From NCBI GenBank assembly GCA_020845695.1, contig JADLFG010000030.1:1-5966 (forward strand): a DNA stretch of 5,966 bases, written 5' to 3'. Below are positions 2,012 to 3,972 of the stretch, one piece after another. Position 1 is the stretch's first letter. Every line of letters begins with the position of its first letter. The notes under the pieces were generated by a model. That model saw only the letters and a list, made by a program, of their open reading frames with translations, had not been told where the DNA came from and made no database searches. A program made the translations under genes and the position numbers. Source of the DNA: Thermoleophilia bacterium. GTDB lineage: Bacteria; Actinomycetota; Thermoleophilia; Gaiellales; Gaiellaceae.

Positions 2012-2179
2012 TCAGGCGAGCAGGAGCAGGACGACGCCGACGGCGAGAGCGAGCGCGAGGAGCGTCGCGTACCGCGCCGGCCGCACGAGATTGCCGCTCG
2101 CGCGCAGCGCGAGCGCCGTCTCGAACCCGAGCACGGCGAGCGCCGTCAGGATGACGGCCGGCCAGAGCACCGCCATCAT
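2012..2179 (-). CDS. Small two-helix membrane protein coupled to the Mn exporter
   Basis: A 55-residue hydrophobic protein that I do not recognise. It has two predicted membrane helices, about residues 6-28 (PAVILTALAVLGFETALALR) and 37-54 (the stretch ending VGVVLLLL). They are joined by a short polar turn, ASGNLVRPARY. The first ATG (2179) overlaps the exporter's stop as ATGA, and a second in-frame ATG follows at 2176. GGAAGG lies just upstream, 6 nt from the second ATG and 3 nt from the first, so the true start may be 2176 (54 residues). Almost every codon ends in G or C, as in its neighbours, which supports real coding. The frame stays open far upstream inside the exporter gene, but that part is an out-of-frame shadow. 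By overlap it must share the exporter's transcript and riboswitch. A role as an accessory subunit is inference. Confidence 0.75.
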   Translation of the reverse strand: MMAVLWPAVILTALAVLGFETALALRASGNLVRPARYATLLALALAVGVVLLLLA

Positions 2180-3138
2180 CCACCTTCCAGGCGAGTGGCG
2201 CGCACGCCGGGTTTCGCCGCCTGCGAAGCCGGCGGCGGCCTGAGCAGCGAGAGGCCAACGGCGGCGGCCAGGACGAGGATGATGACCGCGAGGGACGCGT
2301 AGACCGGGATCTCGTACACGTCGGCGACGACCATCTTGACCCCGACGAACACGAGCACGGCGGCGAGACCGACGTTCAGGTACCTGAAGCGGCCGATCAT
2401 GCCCGCGAGCACGAAGTACAGCGCCGACAGGCCGAGCAGCGAGAAGGCGTTGGCCGCATAGACGATGAACGTCTCGCGCGTCACCGCGAAGATGGCCGGG
2501 ATCGAGTCGACGGCGAAGACGACGTCGAACGTTGCGACGAGCACGAGCGCCGCGAGCATCGGGGTCGCGATCAGCCGGCCGTTCTGGCGCGTGAGCAGCC
2601 GGTCGCCGTCGTAGTCCGCGCTCATCGGAACCGCGCGGCGGATCAGGCGCAGCACGGGATTCCGCTCCGGGTGGATCTCGACGTTCGAGTGCGTCGCCAT
2701 CCGGATCCCGGTCAGGATCAGGAAGCCGCCGAACAGGTAGATCGTGTAGTGGAAGGCGTCGAGCAGCGCCGCTCCGGCGAGGATGAAGAACCCGCGTAGG
2801 ACGACCGCGCCGACGATGCCCCAGAAGATCACGCGTCGCTGGTACGCGGCCGGGACGGCGAAGTAGCCGAAGATCAGGGCGAAGACGAACAGGTTGTCGA
2901 TCGAGAGCGACTTCTCGATCAGAAAGCCCGCCAGATACTCCTCCGCCCAGGCCTGCCCCTGCCACGCCCAGAGCGCTCCGGCGAAGCCGACCCCGAGTAC
3001 CGTCCAGGCCACGCTCCAGGCCACCGCACGGCGCATCGGGATCCGCTCGCCGCGACCGGCGAACGCGACCAGATCGACCACGAGCAGGGCGCAGACGAAG
3101 GCGCCGAAACCGGCCCACACCCACCAATCGAGCGCCAC
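2176..3138 (-). CDS. alx: Alx/TerC family membrane protein, probable Mn2+ exporter
   Basis: A 320-residue integral membrane protein, close to the 321 residues of E. coli Alx, which has a role in manganese export and is controlled by a Mn2+- and pH-responsive leader. About nine hydrophobic segments are visible, roughly at 8-27, 37-58, 79-97, 103-126, 130-147, 190-211, 225-246, 256-275 and 278-299. The two signature motifs carry the conserved acidic residues: IEKSLSIDNLFV (74-85, Asp81, Asn82) and FDVVFAVDSIPAIFAV (204-219, Asp205, Asp211). FGGFLILTGIRM and VFVGVKMVVAD are further family segments. The start is the GTG at 3138, with GGGGGAGG placed 6 nt upstream. A Mn2+ riboswitch precedes it, which independently supports the manganese assignment over a tellurite-resistance role suggested by the TerC name. 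The stop overlaps a small membrane-protein gene by 4 nt. No missing residues or truncation are seen. Confidence 0.93.
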   Translation of the reverse strand: MALDWWVWAGFGAFVCALLVVDLVAFAGRGERIPMRRAVAWSVAWTVLGVGFAGALWAWQGQAWAEEYLAGFLIEKSLSIDNLFVFALIFGYFAVPAAYQRRVIFWGIVGAVVLRGFFILAGAALLDAFHYTIYLFGGFLILTGIRMATHSNVEIHPERNPVLRLIRRAVPMSADYDGDRLLTRQNGRLIATPMLAALVLVATFDVVFAVDSIPAIFAVTRETFIVYAANAFSLLGLSALYFVLAGMIGRFRYLNVGLAAVLVFVGVKMVVADVYEIPVYASLAVIILVLAAAVGLSLLRPPPASQAAKPGVRATRLEGG

Positions 3139-3141
3139 GAA

Positions 3142-3149
3142 AGACCTCC
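3142..3149 (-). promoter_or_regulatory. Shine-Dalgarno of alx, also the anti-switch strand
   Basis: GGAGGTCT (3149 to 3142) precedes the GTG at 3138. These eight bases are complementary (one G-U) to AGACCTTC at 3180-3173, the 3' strand of the riboswitch closing stem. The ribosome site can therefore be hidden when that strand is not held in the riboswitch. Confidence 0.75.
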
Positions 3150-3170
3150 CCCGTCGAGATCGTCACACCG

Positions 3171-3268
3171 ACGAAGGTCTCTCCCGCCACGCGCTCGCGC
3201 GGCCGACATCACCGGGTCAGACGACCGAAATGACGGCGATGCCCGTTCGGGGATACTGCCCCTCCGCG
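3171..3268 (-). ncRNA. yybP-ykoY (Mn2+) riboswitch
   Basis: The leader of alx has the layout of the manganese-sensing yybP-ykoY aptamer. Closing stem P1 is CGGAGG (3266-3261) with CCUUCG (3177-3172), six pairs with one G-U. The first conserved loop is GGGGCAGUA (3262-3254). A second stem pairs AUCGCCG (3240-3234) with CGGUGAU (3214-3208) and continues as UCA (3233-3231) with UGA (3219-3217) past a two-base bulge. A GC hairpin, CGCG-CGAG-CGCG, lies at about 3199-3188. The second conserved loop ends in GAGACC (3181-3176). In this class the two loops dock and bind Mn2+, stabilising P1. The gene downstream is an Alx/TerC exporter, a classic target. The loop reads GGGGCAGUA where I recall GGGGAGUA as commonest, so one extra C may be a local variant. 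Confidence 0.85.
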
Positions 3269-3270
3269 CA

Positions 3271-3279
3271 AGCGTATCA
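3271..3279 (-). promoter_or_regulatory. Candidate extended -10 promoter for the riboswitch-alx transcript
   Basis: On the minus strand, TGATACGCT (3279 to 3271) is an extended -10 (TGn followed by TAnnnT). Its TACGCT core is identical to the -10 of the methyltransferase promoter. No -35 match is seen 16-18 nt upstream. The predicted start, about 3264-3266, coincides with the beginning of riboswitch P1, so the leader would have almost no extra 5' sequence. Confidence 0.4.
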
Positions 3280-3295
3280 CGCGCGGCACGCGCCC

Positions 3296-3315
3296 CCGGT
3301 TGATCGGCCGACCGG
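3296..3315. promoter_or_regulatory. Inverted repeat over the vapBC -35, candidate autoregulatory operator
   Basis: CCGGT (3296-3300) and ACCGG (3311-3315) form an inverted repeat separated by 10 nt. It overlaps the candidate vapB -35 box. VapBC and Phd/YefM systems commonly repress their own promoter through such repeats. The arms are short and GC-rich, so chance occurrence is possible. Confidence 0.3.
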
Positions 3316-3329
3316 CGAGATCTGATGAT
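3300..3329 (+). promoter_or_regulatory. Candidate vapBC promoter
   Basis: TTGATC (3300-3305, four of six to TTGACA), an 18-nt spacer and GATGAT (3324-3329, four of six to TATAAT). The -10 ends 8 nt before the vapB ATG at 3338, where no Shine-Dalgarno is visible, so a leaderless or nearly leaderless mRNA is likely. Confidence 0.4.
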
Positions 3330-3337
3330 CCGATTCC

Positions 3338-3589
3338 ATGCGCGAGGTCAGCGCGACCGAGGCTTCCCGCACCTTCTCGAAGCTGCTCGATGACATCGTG
3401 CATGGCCACGATTCGTACCTGATCGTCCGGCACGGTCGTGCGATCGCGCGGCTCGAACCCGCCGGAGGAGCTGGAGGGCGTGCGCTCCGCGAGCTGCTCA
3501 GGACCAGGCCGCGGGACCCGTCGTGGTCGCGGGAGCTGGCCGATCTGCGAAAGGATCTCACGATCGAGGATCGGGCCTGGCCCGACTGA
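3338..3589 (+). CDS. vapB: Phd/YefM-type antitoxin of a VapBC pair
   Basis: An 83-residue antitoxin. The N-terminal half (residues 2-41) is the Phd/YefM DNA-binding fold, with the characteristic REVSATEASRTFSKLLDDI helix region and the strand pair YLIVRHGRAIARLEP. The C-terminal half (about 48-83) is charged and ends in DLTIEDRAWPD; this is the expected flexible toxin-binding arm that blocks the PIN active site. The antitoxin is expected to neutralise VapC and to repress its own promoter. The start is the ATG at 3338: it places the family N-terminus at once, there is no good Shine-Dalgarno, and a -10 box ends 8 nt upstream, so a leaderless start fits. The gene reads into vapC: GAGGA near its 3' end sits at ribosome-binding distance from the probable toxin start. 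It diverges from the riboswitch-controlled exporter with a 199-nt shared upstream region. Confidence 0.9.
   Translation: MREVSATEASRTFSKLLDDIVHGHDSYLIVRHGRAIARLEPAGGAGGRALRELLRTRPRDPSWSRELADLRKDLTIEDRAWPD
3566..3570 (+). promoter_or_regulatory. Shine-Dalgarno that decides the vapC start
   Basis: GAGGA (3566-3570) lies inside the end of vapB, 6 nt before CTG at 3577. No comparable site precedes the only upstream GTG candidate at 3523, so this element argues for the CTG as initiation codon. Confidence 0.6.
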
Positions 3590-3972
3590 TCCTCGATACG
3601 TCCATCCTCGTCGCCGCCGAGCGCGATCCGGCCGACCCGGCGACCGCCATCGCGGACGAGGATGACGGCGCGATCGCCGCCGTGACCGTTGCTGAATTGC
3701 TCGTGGGCGTCGAGCTGGCGCGAGGGCGGCGGCGGCAGGCACGCGAGCAGTACGTGGGACGGATCCTCGCAGCGATTCCGATCGAGCCGTGCACGGTCGA
3801 GGTTGCCCGAGCGCACGCCCAGCTCCTCGCGGTGACGCGACGCTCGGGACAGCCGCGGGGCGCGCATGATCTGATCATTGCCGCGACCGCGTTGACGGCG
3901 AACCGAATCGTCGTCGCCATCGACGCGTCCGGCTTCCGGGACTTGCCCGGCGTCCAGCTTCGCGAGGCGTGA
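3577..3972 (+). CDS. vapC: PIN-domain ribonuclease toxin VapC (probable CTG start)
   Basis: A 131-residue PIN-domain protein, the usual VapC length. PIN toxins are Mg2+/Mn2+-dependent endoribonucleases that cleave tRNA or rRNA and stop growth. The acidic metal-binding set is complete: Asp7 in LILDTSILVAAER, Glu40 in VTVAELLVGVE, Asp98 in GAHDLIIAATAL, and Asp116 in AIDASGF, followed by LPGVQL. The toxin therefore looks intact. The frame is open back to GTG 3523, but that start would add 18 residues of low-complexity basic sequence with no family match or good ribosome site. CTG 3577 gives the family-like N-terminus (M)ARLILDTS, has GAGGA 6 nt upstream and overlaps vapB by 13 nt, typical of coupled antitoxin-toxin genes. 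I prefer CTG, but the start is inference. The RNA target cannot be read from sequence. The stop lies 3 nt from that of the convergent dehydratase. Confidence 0.88.
   Translation: MARLILDTSILVAAERDPADPATAIADEDDGAIAAVTVAELLVGVELARGRRRQAREQYVGRILAAIPIEPCTVEVARAHAQLLAVTRRSGQPRGAHDLIIAATALTANRIVVAIDASGFRDLPGVQLREA

Follow-up and report, generated by a model that had tools for sequence, protein, structure and literature searches.

The leader of the terC/alx gene in the 5,966-nt stretch of DNA analysed here (the window) carries an aptamer of the yybP-ykoY type, and the 3' strand of its P1.1 helix is complementary to the Shine-Dalgarno (SD) region of the gene that follows. Very probably, terC is controlled by a riboswitch of the Mn2+ class (yybP-ykoY) that acts as an ON switch of translation. 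The elements of the gene and leader are as follows.

2176..3138, minus strand: terC/alx gene, 320 aa, GTG start at 3138-3136, Pfam TerC 166 bits
3142..3149, minus strand: SD with its flank, GGAGGUCU; partner 3173-3180, in the longer form 3139-3149 with 3173-3183
3148..3157, minus strand: alternative masking strand UCGACGGGGG, pairs with 3168-3177
3172..3267, minus strand: Mn2+ riboswitch aptamer of the yybP-ykoY type (P1.1, L1, P1.2, P3, P4; without a P2 hairpin; three-way junction)
3260..3265, minus strand: P1.1 switch helix, 5' strand GGAGGG; the outermost G stands opposite G3172, unpaired
3172..3177, minus strand: P1.1 switch helix, 3' strand CCUUCG, which is also the anti-SD strand
3254..3259, minus strand: L1 5' strand GCAGUA; C3258 is at the place of X. 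oryzae G9, A3257 corresponds to the extruded A10
3178..3181, minus strand: L1 3' strand GAGA; G3179 corresponds to G93, which tracks position 9
3250..3253, minus strand: P1.2 5' strand UCCC, partner GGGA at 3182-3185
3182..3185, minus strand: P1.2 3' strand GGGA, partner UCCC at 3250-3253
3234..3243, minus strand: P3.1 5' strand, partner 3205-3214; both-sided changes in 7/10 pairs
3205..3214, minus strand: P3.1 3' strand, partner 3234-3243
3227..3233, minus strand: L3 metal loop UCAUUUC; A3231 corresponds to the Mn2+-ligating A41/A48
3186..3203, minus strand: P4 hairpin, from the consensus fold and covariation

Residue numbers follow the X. oryzae structure as given in PMC6754395, and their assignment is our reading of the alignment. 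The closest TerC relatives of the window protein are 71-72% identical to it and come from genomes titled Thermoleophilia, Gaiellaceae and Actinobacteria; by sequence, the window TerC matched none of the solved structures. In three TerC relatives (L001-L003) an element of ~95 nt lies directly before the gene, and it was absent by eye at the more distant TerC loci L004 and L006-L019. RNAalifold, applied to the window and L001-L003, gave a consensus fold with P1.1, L1, P1.2, P3 and P4 in a three-way junction. The stack of P1.1, L1 and P1.2 next to the P3 leg of a multi-way junction is present in this predicted secondary structure. The 146-nt leader itself folds with a z of -3.34 against shuffles, and an equally good fold arose in 2/200 shuffles.

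Further leaders were collected with two models. Model R1, built from the window and L001-L003, scores the window aptamer, one of its own training sequences, at 99.9 bits, and it matched 72 of 399 genomes (threshold E 0.01). These matches lie at 82 places, of which one was judged false. These genomes are of the class of a Gaiellaceae genome (G002), which we take to be Thermoleophilia. Seven plasmid TerC genes served as comparators; the R1 aptamer was found at two of these loci (Kocuria L023 and Nocardia L024), and four had neither the R1 aptamer nor the terC RNA motif RF03067. The first set comprises 85 matches. Its alignment (A5) keeps 81 and drops L059 and L107 (near-copies of L058 and L105), L073 (P1.1 3' strand lost in alignment) and L109, a match at E 0.0036 without the L1 motif that was judged a false positive. 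Model R2 was built from these 81 leaders (the window, the class of G002 and the two plasmid leaders) and matched 89 of 396 phylum genomes, or 83 without the six genomes holding training leaders; searches over 40 genomes were run with stricter filters, and the candidates scored per genome were few (10 for R2, 6 for RF00080). The second, or phylum, set uses 84 of 111 places; of the others, 8 belonged to the first set, 2 lay at contig edges and 17 were dropped as the weakest.

Over the 81 aligned leaders, 95.5% of cells in the 28 aptamer pairs are paired; the alignment had been fitted to the structure and is biased in its favour. Both-sided changes occur in 22/28 of these pairs. The covariation score is 0.440, as compared to 0.143 for shuffled and at most 0.080 for slid alignments, and all shuffles and slides score below the observed value. 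The equivalent of the Mn2+-ligating A48, A3231 in the window, is A in 81/81 A5 leaders and in 84/84 phylum leaders (165/165), and the equivalents of L1 A10, U12 and A13 and of L3 C47 and A48 are invariant in 81/81 A5 leaders.

L1 of the window, GCAGUA opposite GAGA, fits GGAGUA at five of its six 5' bases, and position 9 is the sole departure. The sequence-only reading had taken this C for an extra base in the first loop. L1 has the usual six bases and C3258 is a substitution at position 9, because the aligned P1.1 5' strand is 3265-3260, one base off the register of that reading. Position 9 is G in 42, C in 22 (window included) and A in 17 of the 81 A5 leaders, and together with position 93 the combinations are G·G 42, A·A 16, C·G 15, C·A 7 and A·C 1. 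The phylum set has G·G in 83/84 and A·A in one, and 83/84 carry GGAGUA; C at position 9 therefore seems to be a variant of the class. In a quickly built TerC tree (55 rows), which carried long-branch warnings, a minimum of 10 changes fall at position 9 and a minimum of 7 at position 93. The two positions change together in 4/4 well-supported independent comparisons, which is all that the tree offers and is not significant (sign test, p 0.125). It is suggestive, on this tree, that position 93 follows position 9. At the level of sequence, the residues combined at positions 9 and 93 (G·G, A·A or C·G/A) support the non-Watson-Crick pair known from the crystal structure. Elsewhere in L1, G11 is replaced by C or U in three htpX leaders (L036, L049 and L092) and in the terC leader L074.

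The gene behind the window aptamer is of a Mn2+ homeostasis type (TerC/Alx), and the aptamers of its relatives precede TerC and P-type ATPases. Among the 85 first-set matches, the first gene encodes TerC in 57, HtpX in 13, a universal stress protein in 3, a DedA/VTT protein in 3, and a P-type ATPase, a V/A-type ATPase subunit D and a small acidic protein in one each; six are unclassified, the false positive L109 among them. The 84 first genes of the phylum set encode TerC/Alx (39), P-type ATPases (13) and HtpX (1), with 31 unclassified. A Pfam check of ten first-gene proteins returned nine as named and left the small protein unmatched. That genes for HtpX, universal stress proteins, DedA-type proteins and a V/A-type ATPase also follow the aptamer suggests a metal response wider than efflux.

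Some individual loci are also of note. The locus L076 (minus strand) has two aptamers, at 724-814 and 1932-2021; one precedes terC, the other a gene for ATP-synt_D (V/A-type ATPase subunit D). In L085, L098 and L108 the aptamer lies before a 58-67 residue acidic, arginine-rich protein; the one from L098, which was the one of the three tested, had no Pfam match. In L039 the aptamer is followed by what appear to be the first codons of htpX, then a stop, and a TerC homologue ~800 nt further on, an arrangement that would be a deletion or an assembly fault.

The placement of htpX, encoding an M48 membrane protease, directly behind the aptamer was unexpected. It was found in 14/168 leaders, 13 in the first set and one in the second (L034, L036, L038, L040, L043, L045, L046, L048, L049, L062, L079, L092, L100 and L190). 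No description of htpX under a yybP-ykoY riboswitch was found in the open-licence literature searched; in B. subtilis, HtpX is reported to co-purify with a TerC protein (PMC10550928). C·A aptamers all stand before htpX (7/7) and C·G aptamers stand before terC in 14/15. It is conceivable, if rather unlikely, that L1 in this Actinobacterial branch has diverged into sub-classes, defined by the 9/93 combination (G·G, A·A, C·G or C·A) and by the G11 changes, which differ in metal selectivity or set-point, and that one of them senses a metal and switches on HtpX. If true, this would be a metal-triggered membrane quality-control circuit acting via the protease HtpX.

The same distribution bears on whether the window aptamer, with its class and fold unchanged, prefers another metal or responds chiefly to pH because position 9 is C. 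In favour of such a change of ligand are C at the one variant base of the L1 5' strand and the C·A and C·G bias towards htpX and terC, respectively, and the E. coli alx riboswitch is described as pH-responsive as well (PMC9603457). However, gene and L1 type are loosely linked, in that an ordinary G·G is present in 6/13 class htpX leaders and in the one phylum htpX leader. The equivalents of A48 and A10 and the remainder of L1 are kept. In the X. oryzae structure, moreover, Mn2+ is described as held by phosphates and the N7 of A48, with the G9 pair stacking on P1.1 (PMC6754395), so position 9 should tune stability and not choose the ion. We consider an altered ligand quite improbable, and Mn2+ remains the probable ligand.

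The second part of the finding is the switch between P1.1 and the SD. As the sequence-only reading had it, AGACCUUC (3180-3173), CGGAGG (3266-3261) and GGAGGUCU (3149-3142) are present on the minus strand, and AGACCUUC can form 8 bp with GGAGGUCU, including one G-U, across 23 nt. This pairing extends to 11 bp (GAGAGACCUUC/GGAGGUCUUUC, 3183-3173 with 3149-3139). The window also has a second competing pairing, CCUUCGUCGG (3177-3168) with UCGACGGGGG (3157-3148), which is closer to the register of most relatives. An isolated 50-nt window hairpin favours the first register (-23.0 vs -20.6), whereas the minimum-energy fold of the full window leader has the other register plus an outer helix. Both registers mask the SD.

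To score conservation of the pairing, the P1.1 3' strand and its flanking bases were matched in each leader with the 22 nt that precede the start codon, and the best duplex was taken; these scores depend on our start-codon calls and on the anti-SD tail of E. coli. In the first set (n=81; L109 excluded beforehand, L033, L060 and L073 without a start call, near-copies kept), duplexes with the leader's own SD average -15.0 kcal/mol as compared to -11.1 kcal/mol for swapped partners, and 0/20,000 permutations reach the observed value. The 53 non-redundant rows gave -15.0 vs -11.2 kcal/mol. The second set, which is independent of model building and has a start call in 71/84 leaders, gave -15.1 vs -12.2 kcal/mol (n=71; 0/20,000 permutations), and -14.5 vs -11.75 when made non-redundant both within itself and against the first set (n=59; 0/20,000 permutations). 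Because swapping keeps every SD, the excess of own over swapped pairing is covariation beyond SD complementarity. Still, a leader's own SD partner is the single best in only 6/81 and among the best 5% in 25/81, the median rank of the own partner in the second set is at about the best quarter, and 5/80 foreign SD strands pair equally well or better with the window's P1.1 strand.

From the end of P1.1 to the start codon there is a median of 35 nt in the first set (IQR 32-36) and 38 nt in the second (IQR 30-50). The pairing is centred on C95 to +3, where the positions are paired, in order, in 68, 76, 75, 69, 72, 72, 72, 62 and 56 of 79 leaders. The register of the first pairing, in which the SD flank is paired to R93 as well as to A94, occurs in 27/79. 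The P1.1-to-SD pairing anticipated for homologous leaders is retained, and the exact 8-bp register of 3173-3180 with 3142-3149 is only one of several.

These data also weigh on the view that the aptamer is real and the anti-SD pairing is the usual complementarity of CCUUC to an SD, with control exerted via Rho, RNA stability or a similar route. CCUU fits any purine-rich SD, as the energy of the swapped pairs already indicates, and Rho is reported to act at the E. coli mntP riboswitch (PMC11647493). However, two independent sets of leaders both pair better with their own SD than with swapped ones, and the pairing continues beyond the core of the SD to the bases +1 to +3 that follow P1.1 (72, 62 and 56 of 79), with varied pair types, which makes ordinary complementarity a most improbable explanation. 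The mutually exclusive pairing of P1.1 and the SD is conserved and covaries to a degree above ordinary SD complementarity.

In the proposed mechanism, at low Mn2+ the P1.1 3' strand (CCUUCG and its neighbours) would pair with the SD region 23 nt downstream and hide it. Mn2+ bridging L1 and L3 would stabilize P1.1 and take up its 3' strand, and the SD would then be free for the ribosome. Mn2+ as the ligand and the ON direction are both suggested by analogy with the class. Control is probably at translation, since no terminator-like site was found at 3100-3420; a promoter-like site was likewise not found there. In folding without ligand, the mean pair probability of P1.1 is below 0.5 in 79/79 leaders, and at least 5 anti-SD:SD pairs form in 64/79 minimum-energy folds. 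By nearest-neighbour folding, a model that omits tertiary docking and metal, the window's P1.1 state lies 7.9 kcal/mol above its masked state, and the median difference in the 79 leaders is 10.2. This excess counts against the proposed reading, being large for one ion at equilibrium, so the switch may be kinetic; P1.1 is made first in transcription, and timing may therefore matter.

A match to Rfam family RF00080, whose absence the sequence-only reading had named as refuting, was not obtained at the gathering threshold over the whole window, at E 1 in 3000-3400 or at E 10 in 3125-3300. This silence counts against the riboswitch reading, together with C in place of the X. oryzae G at position 9 and the absence of E. 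coli mntP from the R2 matches up to E 10. The lack of an RF00080 match is a weak test and does not exclude membership, because at E 0.1 RF00080 also fails to detect the proven riboswitch of E. coli alx, and it scores E. coli mntP at 41.6 bits, below its cut-off of 45; a score over the Rfam cut-off is a detection rule and not a property of the RNA. Matches to RF00080 at E 0.01 were found in 3/14 control genomes. In the class it matched 0 of 399 genomes over the cut-off and 4 at E 0.01, and in the same 396 phylum genomes one over the cut-off (G554) and 18 at E 0.01. Of those 18, 14 are not among the 89 of R2. RF00080 may thus detect further members, perhaps longer ones, that escape R2, and neither model is complete.

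Membership is nevertheless supported by three observations. R2 finds E. coli alx (40.3 bits, E 8.3e-8). R1 or R2 and RF00080 coincide at five places, G056:C161 and G284:C34, which are in the R2 training set, G029:C446, which is the R2 match in L110, and G702:C61 and G554:C77. The core residues of L1 and L3 are conserved. It is extremely improbable that the leader is a different structured RNA, such as the terC RNA motif (RF03067), or that its fold arose by chance and has nothing to do with yybP-ykoY. In favour of this, the whole window is without an Rfam match above cut-off, and RF03067 is present at another TerC gene (L028), but RF03067 itself is unmatched at 3125-3300 up to E 10, and the recovery of alx and the places shared with RF00080 largely refute such a reading.

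Near the leader, the sole Rfam matches were sub-threshold and unrelated (p27_CRE and mir-1986). The plasmid TerC locus L028, from Azospirillum, has two tandem RF03067 motifs before its TerC gene, at 350-407 and 659-725. A Chloroflexi locus (L005) has GGGGAGUAG and a GAGACC hairpin ~300 nt before terC and appears by eye to be a canonical member; it was missed by RF00080 at E 1 and by R2 at E 10.

Two further features flank the riboswitch and gene. On the plus strand, a divergent pair at 3338-3972 encodes a Phd/YefM-type antitoxin (29.7 bits, against a Pfam cut-off of 29.8) and a PIN-domain protein. It begins 70 nt from the 5' end of the aptamer, so both promoters must fit into one short interval. 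On the minus strand, a 54-residue ORF at 2012-2176 overlaps the end of terC and apparently encodes a two-helix membrane protein; no convincing counterpart was found in L001-L004 or L032.

Much of this system is already published. Descriptions of the class and of how it responds to Mn2+, of P1.1 as a switch helix, of control at the RBS in E. coli and of the three-way form are given in PMC11647493, PMC6754395, PMC9603457 and PMC9495176. No paper on a manganese riboswitch in Thermoleophilia was found in the open-licence literature searched. What is added is the breadth of Actinobacterial leaders missed at the present RF00080 cut-off, the direct P1.1-to-SD platform as a common arrangement in the Actinobacterial branch, the variants at positions 9 and 93, and the association with htpX. 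A better model than RF00080 would reveal Mn2+ regulons across a large phylum. Because the platform is very short and its switch strand leads straight to the SD, it offers a clean test case for translational switching and for reporters to be used in high-GC bacteria.

The yybP-ykoY leader of C. glutamicum cg2157 (terC) is likewise an Actinobacterial terC leader, and differs in having an RF00080 score, 49.13 in a 2013 paper (PMC3890552), whereas the window is unscored; on a C. glutamicum control genome the present RF00080 gave nothing at E 0.01 and a match only at E 10. A 2013 survey that included Corynebacteriaceae and Mycobacteriaceae reported yybP-ykoY in >75% of its taxonomic groups (PMC3766115). 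The S. pneumoniae mgtA riboswitch is described, in the review PMC9495176, as having a three-way junction like that of the window; it acts by transcription activation, whereas the window riboswitch probably acts on translation. The X. oryzae aptamer (PDB 6N2V, PMC6754395) shares the P1.1 switch helix, whose role is published for that RNA, as well as L1 A10, the invariant A48 and the A-minor-contact pair. It has a four-way junction and transcriptional control, in contrast to the three-way junction without P2 and the probably translational control of the window.

E. coli alx is in the same gene family as the window gene, and a reporter of its riboswitch is described as responding to Mn2+ and the element also to alkaline pH (PMC9603457). 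Like the window, it has a GGGGAGUA-type L1, a CGUCA L3 and a GAGACC 3' strand; unlike alx, the window has C at position 9 of L1. In both, a downstream element competes for the P1.1 3' strand (AGACCUUGCC/GGCGAGGUCU in alx, -18.8 kcal/mol in isolation). The competing hairpin of alx ends 65 nt before the gene and excludes the SD, whereas in the window the competitor is the SD itself, 23 nt away.
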